This document shows positions 50,894 to 64,000 of a stretch of 64,000 nucleotides of DNA, piece after piece. Where the stretch lies: the NCBI RefSeq assembly GCF_001043175.1, contig NZ_CP011494.1, forward strand, positions 1,240,001-1,304,000, written 5' to 3'. The notes under the pieces were generated by a model that saw only the letters and a program-made list of their open reading frames with translations, made no database searches and was not told the origin of the DNA. Within the stretch, counting starts at the first letter, position 1. Each line of letters begins with the position of its first letter. The DNA is from Marinobacter psychrophilus (GTDB lineage: Bacteria > Pseudomonadota > Gammaproteobacteria > Pseudomonadales > Oleiphilaceae). The position numbers and the translations under genes were made by a program.

Positions 50894-50908
50894 AAGTTGT
50901 TGAAAATA

Positions 50909-50953
50909 TGGTCGGGACGGTAGGATTTGAACCTACGACCCCTTGCACCCCAT
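50909..50953 (-). repeat. attL: 3' fragment of tRNA-Pro(GGG), left end of the integrated island
   Basis: On the minus strand this reads from ATGGGGTGCAAGG (anticodon loop, anticodon GGG) through the T-arm GTAGGTTCAAATCCTAC to the acceptor CGTCCCGACCA, with CCA encoded. The 5' half of the tRNA (acceptor 5' strand and D-arm) is missing; unrelated sequence follows from 50954. This is what remains on one side when an island enters a tRNA gene at the anticodon loop. The integrase gene starts 220 bases away. The intact tRNA-Pro should lie at the far end, beyond the window. Confidence 0.9.
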
Positions 50954-51175: not shown

Positions 51176-52624
51176 ATGGCAGTAAAAAACAAGGAACTCC
51201 TTCCTCGGAGTGCCGATTCGTCAGATAAAACCATCCAGAAAATGCGCGCTGAGCAGAAAGATGTCTACATCCACGATTCTGCTGTGACAGGTCTGGTTTT
51301 GCGCGTGACGCCGAGTGGCAAACGATTGTGGCACTTGAGATACAGCACTCAGGTTGGCTCCGGCCAGTGGGTTAGTCGAAAGCACTCTCTCGGGGCATTT
51401 GATGATGGCCTAAAAACACGTGCTGCACGTGAACTGGCAGAAGCCTGGCGAGTCCGCATTCGACAGGGAGAAGATCCGCAAGAAGAGAAAAAGCGCGTCG
51501 CTGAGGAGCGTAAGCAAACGGAAATTCGAGAAATTGCAGCGCAGAAAGCCATGAAAACATTAGGTGATGCTGCTAATGCGTATGCGATAAAATTGGCCAA
51601 TAAACAAAGTGGGCATACTGATGGTGGCAAGCATGTTATGAGTATTTTGAACAATCACTTGCTCAGCCGTTACGGTGACATGCCAATAAAGGCCTTCAGG
51701 CGGGAACATATTTTTGATGTTGTAGACCCGATTCTTGCTCGTGGAAACAACGTCATGGCGAATGCTGTCCTGACCAATACGAAATCAATGTTCCAGTATG
51801 CTATTAAAAGGGAATTTATCAAATATTCTGTATTAGACTGTTTAGCGAAAAAAGATGTGGGAGGCCCGGATAAGATTAGGGAAAGGGTTCTTTGTGCAAC
51901 TAAGTTTAAGCAAGATGAGTTGCGAGAGTTGTATATTATTCTTCCAAATGCAGGACTGGCATTAAATCAACCAATCGCAATCCATATTTTGTTGGGAACA
52001 GCTTGTCGAGGAATAGAACTTTTTAAAGCGAGGTGGGATCAAATAAACTTTGATAAGCGCGAATGGATCATTCCTTCAGAGAATGCTAAAAATGATGATC
52101 CGATTGCTGTTTTCTTGTCGGATTATTCTTTGTATTGGTTTAAGCAATTGCGTGAAGTCACAGGCTATTCTGATTGGATGTTCCCGGGGCGATCAACAAA
52201 ACGGCCTTACATGCTTCCTAAAGTGCTCAGTAAGGCCGTTGGCGAGCGACAGCTTAGTCCGGATGTTCCGCCAAGAAAGGGAAGAACGAGAGATCATTCG
52301 ACTCTAATACTGCCGGGAGGTCGCTGGACCGTTCACGATCTTCGACGTACTGCTTCGACAGAAATGCAAATGCTCGGAATTTCCCCACACATCATTGACG
52401 CGTGTCAGAACCACCGTCCCCCAGGGAGTGTTCAGCGTCGTTATCAACATGGCGAGGACACCGAGAAAATGCACATGGCGTGGGATTTATTAGGACGTTC
52501 ATTAAACTCGATGTGTCGAGCATCACCTGTGAGTGTGCTGATGGCGCAAGTAGACGGAATTTCTAAACCCATTGATAACGAGCATCGAAGCGTGATGTGT
52601 GAGTGTTCAGCTACCGTTATGTAA
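51176..52624 (+). CDS. P4-type tyrosine integrase
   Basis: 482 residues. The N-terminal DUF4102-like domain (VTGLVLRVTPSGKRLWHLRY) and SAM-like domain precede the catalytic domain. The active-site residues are present: Arg278 in GTACRGIEL, His387-x-x-Arg390 in VHDLRR, His413 in NHRPPGS and Tyr423 in RRYQH. It catalyses site-specific insertion, here into tRNA-Pro. The last ~50 residues (from SMCRASPVSVLMAQ) extend beyond the usual end. Codon use is noticeably more AT-rich in the middle (51800-52200) than in flanking genes, in line with foreign origin. Confidence 0.93.
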   Translation: MAVKNKELLPRSADSSDKTIQKMRAEQKDVYIHDSAVTGLVLRVTPSGKRLWHLRYSTQVGSGQWVSRKHSLGAFDDGLKTRAARELAEAWRVRIRQGEDPQEEKKRVAEERKQTEIREIAAQKAMKTLGDAANAYAIKLANKQSGHTDGGKHVMSILNNHLLSRYGDMPIKAFRREHIFDVVDPILARGNNVMANAVLTNTKSMFQYAIKREFIKYSVLDCLAKKDVGGPDKIRERVLCATKFKQDELRELYIILPNAGLALNQPIAIHILLGTACRGIELFKARWDQINFDKREWIIPSENAKNDDPIAVFLSDYSLYWFKQLREVTGYSDWMFPGRSTKRPYMLPKVLSKAVGERQLSPDVPPRKGRTRDHSTLILPGGRWTVHDLRRTASTEMQMLGISPHIIDACQNHRPPGSVQRRYQHGEDTEKMHMAWDLLGRSLNSMCRASPVSVLMAQVDGISKPIDNEHRSVMCECSATVM

Positions 52625-52877: not shown

Positions 52878-53789
52878 TCATATATGATTCGTGGTTCGAT
52901 ATTGGTGTTCTGATCTGCTGATCGGTAAATCATGAGGAAAGCCTAATTCTATTAGAGTTTCGCGAACATCCGCTTCCTCCAAAGTGCAGTTCCTGCCGAG
53001 CATTACTTCGCGTACCTGCTCAACCAAAAAATCATGTTTGTAATACAGGCGGCGACTGCCGTGCACTATTCTGTGCGCATAGTTCTCGGTCAGAAATCCT
53101 GGATCGAATAACTCATGATCCTGCTGAAAATAATCCCGAAAATTCTTGATAAGACGGATTTCTTTCTCTACCTGATAAGACTTCTTTTTTAAAGTGCACG
53201 CGGCGCGAATTAGATGAAACCCAACGGACAATACTCTTGTGTCTATTTTTGCTCGCGGTGGTAGTACGGACAAACATTTATCAATCAGTGCTTGTTCTGG
53301 ATAGTCTTCGTATTGAACGTGTTCCAAAAACAGGTTCGGAATATCCCGAAGCACAATATTTGACGGTCTCCCTCCGATACTTTTTTTATTGGCTTTGCGC
53401 ATCTCCATAATCCATTTATAGGCATCTCGGTCATCCGGGCGCTTGTGGATGCGGCAGAGTGTTATCGCGTCAAAGCCAATTGAAAGCCCAGTTGTGTCGC
53501 CTCCGTAGAGTCGCCAATTCGTCAGGGAATCTCTCTCATTGGAGAAACAGGCAATCCCAAAGCGTTCAGGTTTTATTTTGCAGAGCATGGAGCGAACGAT
53601 AGGTTCCATTTCTGGGAATTCGAATTTCCCCTCCGAAATCATCCGTTCAAAAGACTCTGTAAAGTGGGTTATCTCAGTTTCGTCGTTTAGCGCAGTGGCT
53701 TCCGTCAACCACAGTTGTTTCGACTTCAAAACTAAGGGGAACGCTTCCTTTGACGTGTAGTGATAAATCGTTGGAATATCAACGCGCAT
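52878..53789 (-). CDS. DUF2971 domain-containing protein
   Basis: A 303-residue cytosolic protein. The family opening IYHYTSKEAFPLVLKSKQLW with TALNDETEI is clear, followed by IACFSNERDSLTNWRLYGG, GLSIGFDAITL, and near the end the charged EKEIRLIKN. DUF2971 proteins are common in defence and mobile islands, but no biochemical role is established that I can cite. AGGAGG sits seven bases from the start. It is the first cargo gene after the integrase, on the opposite strand. Confidence 0.87.
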   Translation of the reverse strand: MRVDIPTIYHYTSKEAFPLVLKSKQLWLTEATALNDETEITHFTESFERMISEGKFEFPEMEPIVRSMLCKIKPERFGIACFSNERDSLTNWRLYGGDTTGLSIGFDAITLCRIHKRPDDRDAYKWIMEMRKANKKSIGGRPSNIVLRDIPNLFLEHVQYEDYPEQALIDKCLSVLPPRAKIDTRVLSVGFHLIRAACTLKKKSYQVEKEIRLIKNFRDYFQQDHELFDPGFLTENYAHRIVHGSRRLYYKHDFLVEQVREVMLGRNCTLEEADVRETLIELGFPHDLPISRSEHQYRTTNHI

Positions 53790-56018: not shown

Positions 56019-56228
56019 ATGGAAAAACCAAAATTGCAAATGTACTTCACCGATACGGAAGTGGGGGACTACTCGGTATCCTCTGGCATCATCCGGCGCT
56101 GGGTACGTGAAGGCCAATTTCCTCAGGGAAAAAAGCTTAGCTCAGGGTCAACGCGGTGGCTAAGAGCCGATATTGAAAAATTCGATCAGGAGGTGCTTCG
56201 TCGAAATGATACGGCGTTCACGGAGTGA
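56019..56228 (+). CDS. AlpA-like small HTH regulator
   Basis: A 69-residue DNA-binding protein with an AlpA/excisionase-type winged HTH: EVGDYSVSSGIIRRWVREGQF and GKKLSSGSTRWLRADIEKFD. Such proteins regulate integrase or excise P4-like islands. Ribosome site GGAGAC eight bases upstream. Placed in the middle of the island, it could control excision or the genes that follow. Confidence 0.78.
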   Translation: MEKPKLQMYFTDTEVGDYSVSSGIIRRWVREGQFPQGKKLSSGSTRWLRADIEKFDQEVLRRNDTAFTE

Positions 56229-57066: not shown

Positions 57067-57402
57067 TTCGTCGTTTTGCAAAGCTCTCCGCATGCCTTTT
57101 ATGTGCGGGGAGTCTCCCGAACTCCTCGCAAGATACATACCATATTTATCGGCCCTCCTTGATTCAAAACACTCCTCGAACGTGAAACGCCTCATTAGGT
57201 TGTAAAGAGCGACTTTTTTGTCGCAGTACTGGCGTAAAATTCGTACAAACGCCCAACATTTTCGCTCTATGTAGGTCTATACCGGCCAATGCGGTTGTTA
57301 CGTTTGAACTAGCGCTATATATTGGTTGCTCATTATTTTGGGCGCTTTCCAGTCGCCCAATCGCTTGTGAACAGCGCTATGCAAGAACAGGGGAACGAAC
57401 CC
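57067..57402. other. Promoter region of the BREX-type operon
   Basis: Begins with a hairpin (57084-57112) that closes the preceding small genes. The part from 57190 to 57400 should hold the promoter and any operator for the HTH protein. No convincing gene; the longer frame from 57322 is an extension of the HTH gene. Confidence 0.45.
57084..57112 (+). terminator. Terminator-like hairpin
   Basis: CTCTCCGCA and TGCGGGGAG pair over nine bases with one wobble and an 11-base loop, 18 bases after the stop of the small acidic protein gene. Weak T content follows. Confidence 0.5.
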
Positions 57403-57606
57403 ATGACCGAACTGGATGATCGATGGTTGTCAGTCAGCGAAATCGCCAAGTATCTGGGGGTCAGCAACGATACGGTATACAGGTGGATTGACAAGCAAAC
57501 GATGCCGGCTCACCGCGTAGGCCGGGCATGGAAGTTTAAAAAGGACGAAGTCGATGGATGGGTTCGCAATCGCGGCGCAAGCGATGGAAATAGCGCCAAT
57601 GCCTAA
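57403..57606 (+). CDS. Excisionase-type HTH protein, first gene of the BREX-type operon
   Basis: 67 residues from the ATG at 57403 (GGGGAACG upstream). A MerR/excisionase-type winged HTH fills it: WLSVSEIAKYLGVSNDTVYRWI, then QTMPAHRVGRAWKFKKDEVDGW. Its end overlaps the next gene's start by 8 bases, so it is co-translated with the BREX-type genes. Probably an autoregulator of the operon; it differs from the larger WYL-domain BrxR regulators of other BREX loci. Confidence 0.8.
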   Translation: MTELDDRWLSVSEIAKYLGVSNDTVYRWIDKQTMPAHRVGRAWKFKKDEVDGWVRNRGASDGNSANA

Positions 57607-58387
57607 CGATAAACAGCTTGCCCGTTTTGGGTTTCGATTTGAGCGCGGCGGCACCCACAGCTCGCGAACCATGATGCTAGACGAATTGACGGCGCTACTG
57701 AGCTACGTTGATCGCTCAGAGGCAGAAAAGGCTGACTACCTGCACGCCATAGAGGCAGACAACTGCTTGGGCAAACGCTCAGGTAAAACTCGCCGCCTCA
57801 CCTACAGGCACTTGGCAGAGTTGTATTCTCTCGACACAAACCATCTACTCTTCCGCACCTTGCTTTATTTCTGGCAGCGTGATGAAGAAGGAAGACCAAT
57901 GCTGGCGCTTTTAGCAACTTACGCCAGAGACTCTATTTTTCGCACCAGTGCGTCGTTGATTCTCAAAGCACCGGAAGGCTCAATCATCACCCGTGATTCG
58001 GTCGAAGAACGTATAGACAGCCTGGAACCAGGCCGCTTCAGCAAAGCTACTCTAAAATCCACAGCCCAGAACATCAACTCCAGCTGGACTAAATCTGGCC
58101 ACCTGACGGGGCGAAACAAGAAAACAAGAAGCCGGGCCATTCCGACACCGAGCAGCGCCGCCTATGCATTGTTGCTGGGTTACTTAACCGGCGCCCGTGG
58201 GCAAGGTTTGTTCAGCACTGAATATACAAAGCTGCTGGACTGCTCCAAGGAGCAAGTCATTGAATTGGCCGAACAGGCCTCCCGCAGGGGATGGATAACC
58301 TATAAGCGGGTTGGGAGTGTTATCGAGGTCTTGTTCCCCAGCCATATTAATCAGCAAGAACAGGAGTGGTTACGTGAGCAGGGTTAA
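57599..58387 (+). CDS. BREX-type locus protein in the BrxA position
   Basis: 262 residues from the ATG at 57599, overlapping the HTH gene. Largely helical: MMLDELTALLSYV, HLAELYSLDTNHLLFRTLLY, MLALLATYARDSIFRTSASL, FSKATLKSTAQNINSSWTKS, then YALLLGYLTGARGQGLFSTE and RRGWITYKRVGSVIEVLFP. BrxA (DUF1819) of type 1 BREX is nearer 200 residues and does not look the same to me; this may be a divergent BrxA-like protein with a C-terminal winged-helix part. The call rests mainly on its position before BrxB and BrxC. Confidence 0.6.
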   Translation: MPNDKQLARFGFRFERGGTHSSRTMMLDELTALLSYVDRSEAEKADYLHAIEADNCLGKRSGKTRRLTYRHLAELYSLDTNHLLFRTLLYFWQRDEEGRPMLALLATYARDSIFRTSASLILKAPEGSIITRDSVEERIDSLEPGRFSKATLKSTAQNINSSWTKSGHLTGRNKKTRSRAIPTPSSAAYALLLGYLTGARGQGLFSTEYTKLLDCSKEQVIELAEQASRRGWITYKRVGSVIEVLFPSHINQQEQEWLREQG

Positions 58388-58922
58388 ACGCCTGATTCAA
58401 TCGTATGGACGGCACATTGCTGTCCCCTGGCGAGATGACGCCGCAGCCGCTCAGCGGGTTATTTTCTGCGTCTATAACGAAAACGAAGAGCGATGGCTCA
58501 GAGCGAGGGTAGACGAATTTGAAATAGTCACCCGTCAGTCGGGACACGACTGGGCGTTGTTCGATCTGACCAACAGCTTCGCCAGTTGGCTAAGCACCCA
58601 ACGGTATGCCAAAAGCTATTTCCAGAAACCGCACCTGCTGGCCACTGTTTTGCCCAAATACCTCGACTACATCGTCAGCGATTTAGAGCGTGTTCTGAAA
58701 GAGAAGAATGCAGACAACAACACCGTGGTAGCCGTACAAGGTGTTGGCTCCCTGTTCGGATTTCTCAAGGTCAAAGACGTTGTAGATAAGCTGGCGCCCC
58801 TGGTACAGGGGCGGCTGCTAGTTTTGTTCCCCGGCAGTTATGAAAACAACAACTACCGGTTATTGGACGGTTACGACGGGTGGAACTATCTCGCAGTGCC
58901 GATAACCGCAGACAAGGATTAA
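58374..58922 (+). CDS. brxB: BREX protein BrxB (DUF1788)
   Basis: 182 residues from GTG 58374, which is preceded by CAGGAG at the right distance and overlaps the previous gene by 14 bases; the longer frame from 58311 lies inside that gene. The DUF1788 signature is the C-terminal LVLFPGSYENNNYRLLDGYD and GWNYLAVPI, with VIFCVYNENEERWLRARVDE near the N terminus. BrxB is a core BREX component of unknown biochemical role. Next gene is BrxC, 15 bases on. Confidence 0.9.
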   Translation: MSRVKRLIQSYGRHIAVPWRDDAAAAQRVIFCVYNENEERWLRARVDEFEIVTRQSGHDWALFDLTNSFASWLSTQRYAKSYFQKPHLLATVLPKYLDYIVSDLERVLKEKNADNNTVVAVQGVGSLFGFLKVKDVVDKLAPLVQGRLLVLFPGSYENNNYRLLDGYDGWNYLAVPITADKD

Positions 58923-58937
58923 GGAAAGAGGCTGTTC

Positions 58938-61900
58938 ATGAAGAATCGTGAGATTTATCAGAAAGATCCGACCACCCGCAAATTGGTTAACGAAGGGGTG
59001 GCCACTGTTAACGATGACACCACTAGTCAGGCCCTGGCGGTGCTCCGCTATGAGCTGGAAACCTTTGTGTGCGATGGCCAGTACGAAAAGGGCATGTCTC
59101 ACATTCTGGAAACCTACCTGAAAAACATCGATCAGGCACAGCAGCCAGCAGTATGGGTAAGCGGGTTCTACGGTTCTGGTAAATCCCACTTGGTTAAAAT
59201 GCTGCGAACTCTGTGGGTCGATAGCCAGTTTGAAGACGGTGCTACTGCCCGGGGCATCGCTAACCTGCCCCAAGGGGTCCGCGACCATTTACAGGAACTA
59301 AGTACCCAAGCTAAACGCCATGGAGGCTTGCACGCCGCATCTGGAACCCTCGGTTCTGGCGCCAGCGGCAGCGTGCGACTAGCGCTGCTGCGCATTTTGT
59401 TCAAGTCTGCAGGGCTGCCCGAGCAATATCCGGTCGCCCGCTTCGTGATGTGGCTGAAGCACGAGGGTATTTACGACCAGGTGCGCCAGAGCGTCGAGTC
59501 TAAAGGTTACGAATGGCAGGAAGAGCTGGATAACTTCTACGTGGCTGAAGGCCTGCATGAGGCTCTGGTTCAGGCCAAGCCTGCGCTGTTTTCGTCGCCC
59601 ACATCCTGCGTGGAAACCCTCAACAACCTTCATCCGTTTGTTCAGGACATCTCCAGCGACGATATGCTCAAAGCAATCCGCCTGACACTAACCAAAGACG
59701 GTAAATTCCCGCTCACATTGATCGTTCTGGACGAGGTGCAGCAGTTTATCGGCGAAGACAGTCAGCGTTCCATCGCCGTACAAGAAGCCGTAGAGGCGTG
59801 CTGCAAAAACTTTGGCGGCAAATTGCTCTTCATCGGTACCGGCCAAACAGCCGTCACCGGCACCAGTAACCTGAAGAAACTCGAAGGCCGTTTTACCATC
59901 CGCGTTGAGCTGTCCGATGCCGATGTCGATGCGGTTATCCGGCAGGTCATTCTGGCCAAGAAGCCAGAAGCCAAGACACGTGTCGAACAAGTTCTGCAAA
60001 CCAACGTAGGGGAAATCTCCCGACACTTGGCCGGCACTACCATCGGCCATCGCCAGGATGATTTGCCATATTTCCCCCAAGACTACCCGATTTTACCGGT
60101 ACGCCGGCGCTTCTGGGAAAACACCCTGAGAATACTGGACCAGACTGGTACCGACAGCCAGTTACGCAACCAGCTCAGCATGATCCACAAAGTCATTCAG
60201 ACCAACTTGGATGATCCGCTCGGCCATGTGGTACCGGCGGACTACCTCTACTTCGACTCCGCCGACAAGTTGCTTCAGTCTCGTATCTTGCCCCGCAAGG
60301 TGCATGAAAAAACCATGAGCTGGATAAAGGGTTCGGAGGATCAGCGCCTGATGGCTCGTGCCTGCGGTCTGGTTTTCCTGATCAATAAATTGGGCGGACA
60401 AAACAACGAAATCGGCATCCGGGCTAACGTGGACTCCCTGGCAGACCTGCTCGTGAAGGATCTTTCCAATGGTAGCAGTAGCTTACGTAGCAAACTGCCC
60501 GGGCTGTTGGACAACTGCGAACTACTGATGAAAGTGGGTGAGGAATACCGCATCCAGACCGAAGAAAGTGCCGCCTGGACCGACGAATTTCTCAGCCAAC
60601 GCTCAGCACTCTCTAACGAAGCGCATCGTATTCACGCGGAACGCGATGACCGAATACGCCGGATGTTCGGCGATGTGACTCGCAAGCTGTCATTGATGCA
60701 AGGTGAAGCCAAAGTTACCCGGGATATTTACCCGGTGTTTGATGCCCAGCTTCCGAACGATGCCCGCCAGCGCATCTACGTGTGGATAAGGGATGGCTGG
60801 AGTGGTGATGAAAACTCCGTTCGGGCCGATGCTCGGCAGGCCGGCAACCAGTCGCCAACGATCTTTGTGTTTGTTCCCAAGCGTTCCGCAGACGACCTGC
60901 GCCACCACCTGATCGACTTCAAAGCGTCCAGTGCCACCCTGGATAAACGCGGCTCTCCTAATACGCCGGAAGGCACCGAAGCCAAAGCTGCCATGGAAAC
61001 CATCAAACAAACAGCAGAGGGCAAAATCCGCGAGCTACTCAGTGAAGTTTTCTCCGGTGCCCGGGTATTTCAAGGCGGAGGTAACGAAATTCTCGGCAAT
61101 AACTTGCAGGAGATGGTGCTAGAAGCGGCGAATAATGCCCTGCAGCGCCTGTATCCTAATTTCCATATTGCCGATCATAGTGGCTGGCAAAAGGCCTACG
61201 AGAAAGCCCAAAAGGGTGCACCAGATGCCCTTAAAGCTGTGGGTGACGACGGTGATCCCGCAAAGAACTCAGTGTGCAAGACTATTCTGGGCTTTATTGC
61301 TGGCGGCAAAAAAGGGACAGATATTCGCGATAACTTTGAGGGCTCGGGTTATGGGTGGTCGCGCGATGCTGTAGATGGTGGCCTTCAGATACTGCTGGTA
61401 GCAGGGGTGATTCGCGCCCAGGATGATCGCGGGCAGGTGGTTGAACCCTCCGCACTAGAACGCAAGAGCATCGGCAAAGCCTTTTTCAAAGTCGAATCGG
61501 CCAATGTCACGACACCGCAGCGCATCCAGATCCGCAAACTGCTGCAGAAAGTCGGCGTATCCGCCAAACAGAGTGAAGAGCTGGCCCATGTGCCGCTGTT
61601 TTTGCAGAAGGTGTCTGAACTGGCCGACAAAGCCGGTGGGGAGGCGCCCAAGCTGGAACGCCCGGACACCCAGTTCCTGGATGATATTCGACTGACCACC
61701 GGTAACGAACAACTATTGGCGCTCTATAACCGGCGGGATGAACTAATTCAAAGTATTGAGCGCTGGGAAAGCCTTGCCGAACGGATCCAGCAGCGTTGGC
61801 CCATCTGGACTACCCTCAAGCTCCTCGTAAACCACGCCAATGGCCTGAGTGATGCCGATGTCTACCGTACCCAAGTCAGCACTATCGAACAACAACGGCA

Positions 61901-62375
61901 ACTGCTGGAAGACCCGGACCCGATCGCCCCGCTGATTGCCAGCCTGACCCAAAGCCTGCGGGATGCCCTGAACACACTGAACCACGACTACCAGGCCCGG
62001 CATAAGCAGGGCATGAAACGCCTGGAGACGGATGCTAACTGGCAGCAGCTGGAACCAGAACAGCGCAATCAGTTGCTCGCCAGGCAGAAACTGACCCTTG
62101 CCGACCAACCTAAAGTAGCGGTCCAGTCCACCGACGAGGTGCTGAACACCCTAGACCATTACTCCCTGGCCACGTTCGCCGACCGGGTAGCGGCCCTGCC
62201 CAGCCGCTTTGATAACGTAGCGGTATCCGCTGCTGAGCTGTGTGAACCGGAAATCCAGTTTGTATCGGTACCACGACGTACCCTGAAAACCGAGGCAGAC
62301 ATTGATACCTGGGCTGAAGAGGTGAAAGACCAGCTCAAAAACGCACTGGCAAAGGGCCCAGTCTCGGTCAAATAA
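58938..62375 (+). CDS. brxC: BREX system P-loop ATPase BrxC
   Basis: 1145 residues, the usual size. The N-terminal AAA-like ATPase has Walker A GFYGSGKSH (residues 76-84) and Walker B LTLIVLDEVQQFIG (Asp265-Glu266), with a LLFIGTGQTAV sensor-like segment. A long helical C-terminal part (about residues 850-1080) contains coiled-coil stretches. BrxC is the large ATPase of BREX phage defence, acting with PglX methyltransferase and PglZ. GAAAGAGG precedes the start. Intact. Confidence 0.93.
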   Translation: MKNREIYQKDPTTRKLVNEGVATVNDDTTSQALAVLRYELETFVCDGQYEKGMSHILETYLKNIDQAQQPAVWVSGFYGSGKSHLVKMLRTLWVDSQFEDGATARGIANLPQGVRDHLQELSTQAKRHGGLHAASGTLGSGASGSVRLALLRILFKSAGLPEQYPVARFVMWLKHEGIYDQVRQSVESKGYEWQEELDNFYVAEGLHEALVQAKPALFSSPTSCVETLNNLHPFVQDISSDDMLKAIRLTLTKDGKFPLTLIVLDEVQQFIGEDSQRSIAVQEAVEACCKNFGGKLLFIGTGQTAVTGTSNLKKLEGRFTIRVELSDADVDAVIRQVILAKKPEAKTRVEQVLQTNVGEISRHLAGTTIGHRQDDLPYFPQDYPILPVRRRFWENTLRILDQTGTDSQLRNQLSMIHKVIQTNLDDPLGHVVPADYLYFDSADKLLQSRILPRKVHEKTMSWIKGSEDQRLMARACGLVFLINKLGGQNNEIGIRANVDSLADLLVKDLSNGSSSLRSKLPGLLDNCELLMKVGEEYRIQTEESAAWTDEFLSQRSALSNEAHRIHAERDDRIRRMFGDVTRKLSLMQGEAKVTRDIYPVFDAQLPNDARQRIYVWIRDGWSGDENSVRADARQAGNQSPTIFVFVPKRSADDLRHHLIDFKASSATLDKRGSPNTPEGTEAKAAMETIKQTAEGKIRELLSEVFSGARVFQGGGNEILGNNLQEMVLEAANNALQRLYPNFHIADHSGWQKAYEKAQKGAPDALKAVGDDGDPAKNSVCKTILGFIAGGKKGTDIRDNFEGSGYGWSRDAVDGGLQILLVAGVIRAQDDRGQVVEPSALERKSIGKAFFKVESANVTTPQRIQIRKLLQKVGVSAKQSEELAHVPLFLQKVSELADKAGGEAPKLERPDTQFLDDIRLTTGNEQLLALYNRRDELIQSIERWESLAERIQQRWPIWTTLKLLVNHANGLSDADVYRTQVSTIEQQRQLLEDPDPIAPLIASLTQSLRDALNTLNHDYQARHKQGMKRLETDANWQQLEPEQRNQLLARQKLTLADQPKVAVQSTDEVLNTLDHYSLATFADRVAALPSRFDNVAVSAAELCEPEIQFVSVPRRTLKTEADIDTWAEEVKDQLKNALAKGPVSVK

Positions 62376-62434
62376 CGGTCAATCAAAGAAAGAACTATCA
62401 AAAAAGGACCGCCAAAAAGAGGACTGCCAAAGCC

Positions 62435-64000
62435 ATGCGAACCCTCACTAATATTGAGGAACTGCTGCCAGAGCTGGATCACTGCATAGCCGATGAGCTG
62501 GAAGACCAGGATCTCGACTTCAAGCAGTGGGAACTGAAAAGCCACGACAACGCGGTAAAAACCGTGGTTCAGATGGCCGTGTGCATGGCCAATGGCGGCG
62601 GTGGCACCGTGGTGTTCGGCGTGGCCGATCGCATACAAGGCAGAAACAACGCCATTTTGGGTGTGCCACCGGAAATCGACGGGAATATGTTGAAAAAGGC
62701 GGTATACGACCAGACCGACCCGAAAATCATGCCGGTGTTTGAGGAATTGGCCGTACCCGAAGGCACAGGCCGCGTTTTGCTGATGCAGGTCCACCCCGGC
62801 ATGCCACCCTATACCGACACCGCAGGCCGAGGCACCATCCGTGTCAGCAAAGACTGCGTGCCCTTAACCGGCACCGTCCGCCGCAAGATTGGTGTGGAAA
62901 CCGGTGAAACCGATTACACGGCAGAGGCAGTTGCACCTGTAGACAACACCTTGCTGTCTGCTACTGCGCTGGAAGCCCTGCGCAATCAGGCCAGCAGAGA
63001 ACGTGCGCCAGATGACCTGCTGAGGCAATCGGATGCCGAACTCCTATCCACTCTGGGGTTAATCAAACAGGGCAAGCTGACCCGTGCGGCCATCTTGCTG
63101 GCAGGTACTGAAGCGGCTATTCGTGAATACCTGCCCGGCCACAACTGGACCTTTCTGCAGATGACGTCCGATACGGACTACGGTATCCGGGAAGATCGCG
63201 TCAGCGCATTGCCTTTGTCCGTCCAGCGCATTGAAGAACTATTGGTACCCTTTAACCCAATCACCACCTATAAGCAGGGCATGTTCCACTACGAATACCG
63301 GACCTGGCCAGAAGTCGCCGTGCGCGAGGCCCTGATGAACGCGTTCTGCCATGCCGACCTGCGTATTGCCGGGCCGATAATGGTCAAGCTGTATTCAGAC
63401 CGGCTGGAAATCAGCAATAACGGCGGATTTATCGCCGGCATTACCGCCAATAACATTCTGCACCACCAACCTGCAGCCAGAAATCCTTCACTGGTTGAGG
63501 CACTTACCCGCCTGCGCCTGGTTAACCGTAGCAATCTGGGCATTAATCGCATGTTTTCTGCGCTGTTGATGGAAGGTAAAGAGCCACCCCAGATCAGGGA
63601 AGTGGGGGATTCCGTGCAGGTGAGCTTTCCCAAACGCGAGTTGAACGCCACCTTCCGCTTATTTGTGGCAGATGAAAGCGAGCAGGGTCGCAAGCTGGGA
63701 GTGGACGAACTGATGCTGCTGCAGTACCTACTTCAGAATCCGGAGGTAGACACCAACACTGCCGCTACCCTATGCCAGCGTGGCGAAGCAGAAATACGCG
63801 AAAAGTTATCCACAATGGAGTCGGCCGGATACATCGAACACGGCGGTACCGGGCGGGGAGCTTACTGGTGTATTCAGCCCGAATTCTACAATCGCCTCGC
63901 CGAGGATGGCCAGAGTGGCGCCCGCCGACGAATCGACTGGGACGCCGCGAAAACGCGCGTGCTCAGCATTCTGATGGAGCGGGCGAAACGGGGCGAGCTG
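62435..64000 (+). CDS. AlbA_2 (Schlafen-type) domain / GHKL ATPase protein, BREX-associated (partial, 3' end beyond window)
   Basis: The frame stays open from ATG 62435 to the window end, 522 codons so far. The N-terminal AlbA_2 domain shows DLDFKQWELKSHDNAV and MAVCMANGGGGTVVFGVAD. A middle linker follows, then an HATPase_c_4 (GHKL) domain: VAVREALMNAFCHADLRIAG, LYSDRLEISNNGGFIAGI and RNPSLVEALTRLRLVNRSN. The last part is a winged-helix region (LLQYLLQNPEVDTNTAATLC). Such proteins are found as extra genes inside some BREX loci. It follows brxC by 59 bases in the same operon. Confidence 0.85.
   Translation, partial: MRTLTNIEELLPELDHCIADELEDQDLDFKQWELKSHDNAVKTVVQMAVCMANGGGGTVVFGVADRIQGRNNAILGVPPEIDGNMLKKAVYDQTDPKIMPVFEELAVPEGTGRVLLMQVHPGMPPYTDTAGRGTIRVSKDCVPLTGTVRRKIGVETGETDYTAEAVAPVDNTLLSATALEALRNQASRERAPDDLLRQSDAELLSTLGLIKQGKLTRAAILLAGTEAAIREYLPGHNWTFLQMTSDTDYGIREDRVSALPLSVQRIEELLVPFNPITTYKQGMFHYEYRTWPEVAVREALMNAFCHADLRIAGPIMVKLYSDRLEISNNGGFIAGITANNILHHQPAARNPSLVEALTRLRLVNRSNLGINRMFSALLMEGKEPPQIREVGDSVQVSFPKRELNATFRLFVADESEQGRKLGVDELMLLQYLLQNPEVDTNTAATLCQRGEAEIREKLSTMESAGYIEHGGTGRGAYWCIQPEFYNRLAEDGQSGARRRIDWDAAKTRVLSILMERAKRGEL

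Follow-up and report, generated by a model that had tools for sequence, protein, structure and literature searches.

The window analysed here is a stretch of 64,000 nucleotides of Marinobacter psychrophilus (positions 1240001-1304000 of one contig of 3,998,597 bases, NZ_CP011494.1) which ends within a locus of the bacteriophage exclusion (BREX) type; the reading was extended past base 64,000, and coordinates above 64000 are window-equivalent, i.e., they lie outside the window. Between 57403 and 76172 there are eleven nearly touching genes, all on the + strand, in the order helix-turn-helix (HTH) gene, brxA, brxB, brxC, a Schlafen/AlbA-GHKL gene (hereafter AlbA), pglX, GmrSD, a gene for a protein of 429 residues, DUF3644, pglZ, and brxL (Table 1). 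All 11 frames are open. Overlaps of 8 bases are found between brxA and the HTH gene and between GmrSD and pglX, brxL and pglZ overlap by one base, and the DUF3644 gene starts on the base right after the end of the 429-residue gene. All six genes of the type 1 BREX core were identified by profile and lie in the canonical order brxA, brxB, brxC, pglX, pglZ, brxL, with PADLOC profiles matching each of the six proteins over nearly its full length. With a probability of about 90% the locus represents a full type 1 BREX operon (HTH-brxA-brxB-brxC-pglX-pglZ-brxL), located on an integrative element of 28.6 kb that occupies the 3' end of the tRNA-Pro(GGG) gene of a Marinobacter-type bacterium. The order of the core is ordinary, and the locus is neither a remnant nor a new core arrangement.

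A preceding sequence-only reading, which ended with the window, had given the positions, + strand, and tight packing of the genes from HTH to AlbA as they appear in the list of open reading frames and in the printed sequence. It had called the locus partial, which is true of the window but not of the contig, where pglX, pglZ, and brxL come next. Since these three genes were found downstream, the locus is a type 1 BREX with accessory genes, and the question posed by the window edge can be closed without any rearrangement of the core. The suspected variant with an unusual gene order was thus mostly not borne out; the AlbA gene does not stand in the place of pglX but before it, in the gap between brxC and pglX, and as pglX comes after it the idea that pglX is missing or replaced was rejected. 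The suggestion of a nested extra system did hold, with extra defence genes present in two gaps, brxC-pglX and pglX-pglZ. Neither BrxHI, BrxHII, nor BrxD was among the PADLOC matches listed for the operon proteins (the best 25 of 48 for PglX and the best 25 of 35 for GmrSD).

Table 1. Features of the BREX operon and of the element that carries it.
Feature	Position	Strand	Evidence
attL, 48-bp exact repeat of tRNA-Pro 3' end	50906-50953		exact match
Tyrosine integrase	51176-52624	+	Pfam Phage_integrase, arm and middle domains above cut-offs
HTH_17 protein, excisionase/MerR-type	57403-57606	+	Pfam HTH_17 E=2.1e-17; PADLOC mad1 E=2.4e-14
brxA, 262 residues	57599-58387	+	PADLOC BrxA E=2e-108; predicted fold nearest solved structure BrxA 7zge
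brxB	58374-58922	+	Pfam BrxB 33.9 bits (cut-off 26.8); PADLOC BrxB E=5.5e-81
brxC	58938-62375	+	NCBIfam BREX_BrxC 966.9 bits (cut-off 400); PADLOC BrxC 1700 bits
Schlafen/AlbA_2 + GHKL-type ATPase (HATPase_c_4) accessory, 569 residues	62435-64144 (last 144 bases outside window)	+	Pfam SLFN_AlbA_2, HATPase_c_4 above cut-offs
pglX	64210-67758	+	PADLOC PglX 1827.8 bits
GmrSD type IV restriction gene	67751-69454	+	Pfam GmrSD_N E=8.7e-42 (DUF262), GmrSD_C E=1.4e-28 (DUF1524)
429-residue gene	69492-70781	+	no named family
DUF3644 gene	70782-71762	+	Pfam DUF3644 E=3.3e-57
pglZ	71716-74130	+	NCBIfam NF033450 BREX_PglZ_1_B (BREX-1 PglZ type B) 955.4 bits (cut-off 400)
brxL	74130-76172	+	TIGR02653 629.7 bits (cut-off 628.25); TIGR02688 also above cut-off
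attR, other 48-bp copy	79473-79520		overlaps tRNA-Pro(ggg) 3' end
tRNA-Pro(ggg)	79476-79552	-	

Core genes and integrative element

The identities of BrxB and BrxC, which had been regarded as secure, were confirmed, for BrxB by Pfam and PADLOC and for BrxC by NCBIfam and PADLOC, and the first gene of the operon does encode a tiny excisionase-type HTH protein, as had been noted; this HTH_17 protein would likely be the regulator of the operon. Its open reading frame is listed from a TTG at 57322, and 57403 is an ATG in the same frame. The probable start of brxB is the GTG at 58374, while the PADLOC match of PglZ begins at residue 25, so that the true start of pglZ is probably the ATG at 71788. 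Walker A motifs are present in BrxC (GSGKSH) and BrxL, and motif I of PglX (DPCCGSGHF) is intact.

A few observations on BrxA and PglX weigh against the assignment to type 1 BREX. The protein in the place of BrxA had been described as atypical, and indeed no Pfam or NCBIfam model matched it; in addition, its sequence profile reaches the BrxA structure 7zge at only E=0.88. Among the NCBIfam models PglX matches BREX-1 PglX best, with a score of 357.6 bits that falls short of the cut-off of 500. Motif IV of PglX, the usual form of which is NPPY or NPPF, reads NVPY here (residues 510-513). The valine is common to 25 of the 26 aligned relatives and NVPY is therefore, on the alignment, a subfamily trait and not damage to this copy of pglX. 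As for BrxA, both the PADLOC profile and the predicted fold, a model with two HTH lobes and a C-terminal winged-helix-like part, identify the protein as BrxA, and the option of a non-BREX gene was rejected; judged by profile and model, it is a divergent and longer BrxA. A subset of type 1 BrxA proteins is described as carrying a third, winged HTH (PMC12839542). Within pglX, a GC-rich palindrome at 65070-65110, which occurs only once in this genome, codes for the linker PSPLAGEGQGEG beside motif I; among relatives, this linker of PglX may be identical, altered, or missing.

The 28.6-kb element is an integrative element in a tRNA gene, as seen from its integrase and from direct repeats one of which lies on the tRNA 3' end. 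The integrase starts 222 bases past attL, and a terminator-like hairpin immediately to the left of attL reads, by eye, as the terminator of the tRNA. In six out of six same-genus sites, chosen by us, the terminator side runs on into the tRNA side without interruption, and ARAGORN found tRNA-Pro(ggg) in both of the two sites on which it was run. The GC content is 51.6% within the element and 54.4% and 54.0% outside. In several relatives, including G525, G770, G778, and G797, the gene that lies further to the left of attL is separated from the tRNA-Pro site, being on a different contig or far away from it; the side to the left of attL therefore has another history. The island also contains a gene for a DUF2971 protein (52878-53789, - strand; PADLOC candidate PDC-S31, E=5.8e-8) between the integrase and the BREX genes, and a second integrase-like gene (Integrase_1; 76829-77977, + strand) between brxL and the tRNA-Pro end.

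The brxC-pglX gap and the competing readings

In addition to the two domains listed in Table 1, the AlbA protein has winged-helix matches below the Pfam cut-off and thus a probable winged helix. Residues E23 and D28, which we take to be equivalent to the catalytic acids of Schlafen, are conserved in all 73 of the relatives aligned; it should be noted that D28 was covered by one pattern of the search that gathered these relatives. The architecture of Schlafen, minimal histidine kinase, and winged HTH has been reported in at least 1017 taxa in BREX and related systems (PMC12839542; Rakesh and Krishnan, 2026), and a Schlafen/AlbA-ATPase accessory of BREX is thus already catalogued.

A scan of genome contigs with the AlbA protein returned at least 78 loci, in which the core genes were then located by tblastn with the proteins of the window. 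The brxC subfamily of the window is present in 29 of the 78 loci listed. A further locus (L013), which opens within AlbA, goes on to pglX, pglZ, and brxL, and the remaining 48 gave no core BREX match by tblastn with these proteins. Most of the weakest AlbA matches, which are from Bacillales, are restricted to the N-terminal domain. Three loci (L025, L032, and L061) carry another AlbA-like gene downstream of pglX as well, a distant one with 22-24% identity.

These loci bear on the possibility that the locus represents a genuinely new BREX subtype, with the AlbA protein as a seventh core subunit beside BrxC. Such a reading would account for the finding that, among the loci listed, AlbA directly follows brxC in 28 of the 29 with both genes, starting at most 181 bases past the brxC end (the exception, L029, has 3.5 kb between the two), and that in at least two of the 48 loci without a core match (L039 and L045; neighbours were scanned in five of the 48) AlbA directly follows a different brxC subfamily, PDLC02482. 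However, all 78 loci came from an AlbA query, which cannot tell how often AlbA is missing beside brxC. A reverse search from brxC (E<=1e-50) gave 6 of 398 genomes of the phylum and 9 of 195 relatives, our own genome being included in each count; among the 13 other genomes AlbA was present in six (in one at 59% identity), taken to be the same records as loci of the AlbA query, absent in six, and in one the contig ended too early. Furthermore, in two of the six loci without AlbA (L103:8067-9916 and L112:13625-15480) the gap is filled by a different pair, an ATPase and a protein of 153 residues, which in L103 is PADLOC PDC-M07A/B and in L112 is similar by eye. Because six of the 12 readable brxC loci have no AlbA, AlbA is cargo and its status as a core gene was rejected, which leaves a new subtype very unlikely.

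Two other readings of the locus were weighed. The first, that of a BREX remnant, degenerate or silent, on an island undergoing decay, would have a precedent within the group, as in a close relative, Marinobacter sp. ELB17 (L004 and L107, one record), the similarity of pglX ends just past motif I and this copy seems broken; other relatives have an intact pglX. In the operon studied here, however, the eleven open frames, the nearly full-length matches of the core proteins, and the presence of the BrxC and BrxL Walker A motifs, the GmrSD motifs, and PglX motif I make decay very improbable. A methylation-associated (MADS-type) system is brought to mind by the mad1 match of the HTH protein, by a weak mad2 match of PglX (E=4.7e-9), and by a weak mad1 match (E=0.00067) of a second small AlpA/HTH_17-like open reading frame upstream of the BREX HTH gene (56019-56228), which is below the Pfam cut-offs. 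Against this, the HTH protein is a generic HTH_17 domain, PglX scores far better as PglX, no mad family was among the same listed PADLOC matches for the other operon proteins, and the full BREX core set speaks for BREX; with no operon gene among those matches being mad-like beyond the HTH, apart from the weak match of PglX, a MADS system is scarcely credible and was rejected. The reading as a complete type 1 BREX operon with accessory genes is the one that we retain.

The pglX-pglZ gap

The GmrSD protein has the motifs DGQQR and EHVLP, presumably the motifs of the family. The 429-residue protein which follows matched none of the named families of Pfam, PADLOC, and NCBIfam. HEPN RNases have the motif Rx4-6H, and residues R116-H121 (RHEIEH) of the DUF3644 protein are invariant in 28 of 28 aligned sequences; DUF3644 is a HEPN family (PMC3710099). 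The DUF3644 gene directly follows the 429-residue gene in five out of five close loci. Comparison of the gap between relatives showed GmrSD alone in L011, L022, and L103, the 429-residue/DUF3644 pair without GmrSD in L018 and L037, and both together in L035 and in the locus of the window; the gap of L017 has none of these genes and no room for them, and further loci have other genes in it. GmrSD and the pair thus vary independently, and the content of the gap changes while the core stays. Taken together, the locus is a single operon with two cargo gaps, the contents of which exchange between relatives around a constant core.

The accessory effectors stacked in the operon are mostly catalogued, and novelty seems confined to the 429-residue family, which together with DUF3644 makes the fresh lead of this work. 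Relatives of the 429-residue protein are many (771 at E<=0.001 among 7996 candidates scored), one of them, a distant relative at L151:5941-7320, lying on a prophage contig between terminase/portal-like and capsid-like genes (labels by eye). A low-confidence model of the protein suggests a domain like a modified-base reader and a PD-(D/E)XK-like domain. We tentatively propose, as a possibility that may well prove wrong, that this is an undescribed modification-dependent endonuclease family, in which a PUA-like reader is fused to a PD-(D/E)XK domain whose active site is QxK, and that jointly with the DUF3644 HEPN RNase it would make up a back-up system of two genes in the pglX-pglZ gap of BREX; the nuclease would cut phage DNA with modifications that defeat PglX/BREX, and the HEPN RNase would stop the cell on failure. 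An unnamed family with this many relatives lends itself to direct tests of nuclease action on modified DNA and of a partnership with HEPN.

Proposed working and closest known systems

Gene content, order, families, and element ends were observed directly, and each activity described here is one that we infer. The operon would be expected to act as is established for the type 1 BREX family: PglX, with BrxA, BrxB, BrxC, and PglZ, would place N6-methyladenine in a non-palindromic site of the host, and the full set with BrxL would block unmodified phage DNA. The Schlafen/AlbA-GHKL-winged-helix protein is a proposed back-up RNase, GmrSD would provide type IV restriction of modified phage DNA, and the 429-residue and DUF3644 proteins would act as a pair, the former as a predicted PD-(D/E)XK nuclease that senses modified DNA and the latter as a HEPN RNase.

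The type 1 BREX of E. fergusonii pEFER with BrxU, as described in PMC8565348, has the same six core genes and likewise embeds a GmrSD type IV enzyme which covers modified phages. There, however, brxU lies between brxC and pglX and the regulator is the WYL protein BrxR, whereas in the present operon the GmrSD gene is placed in the pglX-pglZ gap, a small HTH_17 protein is found upstream, and further accessories are present. The structure of BrxA, 7ZGE (PMC9240713), shares with our model the fold neighbours 7zge, 3bhw, SspB, and the recognition domains of BpuJI and FokI, but it has 199 residues where the protein described here has 262 and an extra C-terminal winged-helix-like part. The BREX effectors of Rakesh and Krishnan (2026; PMC12839542) include Schlafen-kinase-winged HTH, GmrSD/HNH, PD-(D/E)XK, and HEPN proteins encoded within BREX loci; no DUF3644-linked pair with a fusion of reader-like and PD-(D/E)XK domains was seen among them, the term "DUF3644" occurring 0 times in the main text of that paper. 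In its predicted plan, i.e., an N-terminal reader of modified bases and a C-terminal nuclease, the 429-residue protein may be closest to the EVE-HNH enzyme VcaM4I, a modification-dependent endonuclease of the PUA superfamily described in PMC7897488; the nuclease of VcaM4I is of the HNH type, whereas that of the 429-residue family would, by the low-confidence model, be PD-(D/E)XK (QxK).

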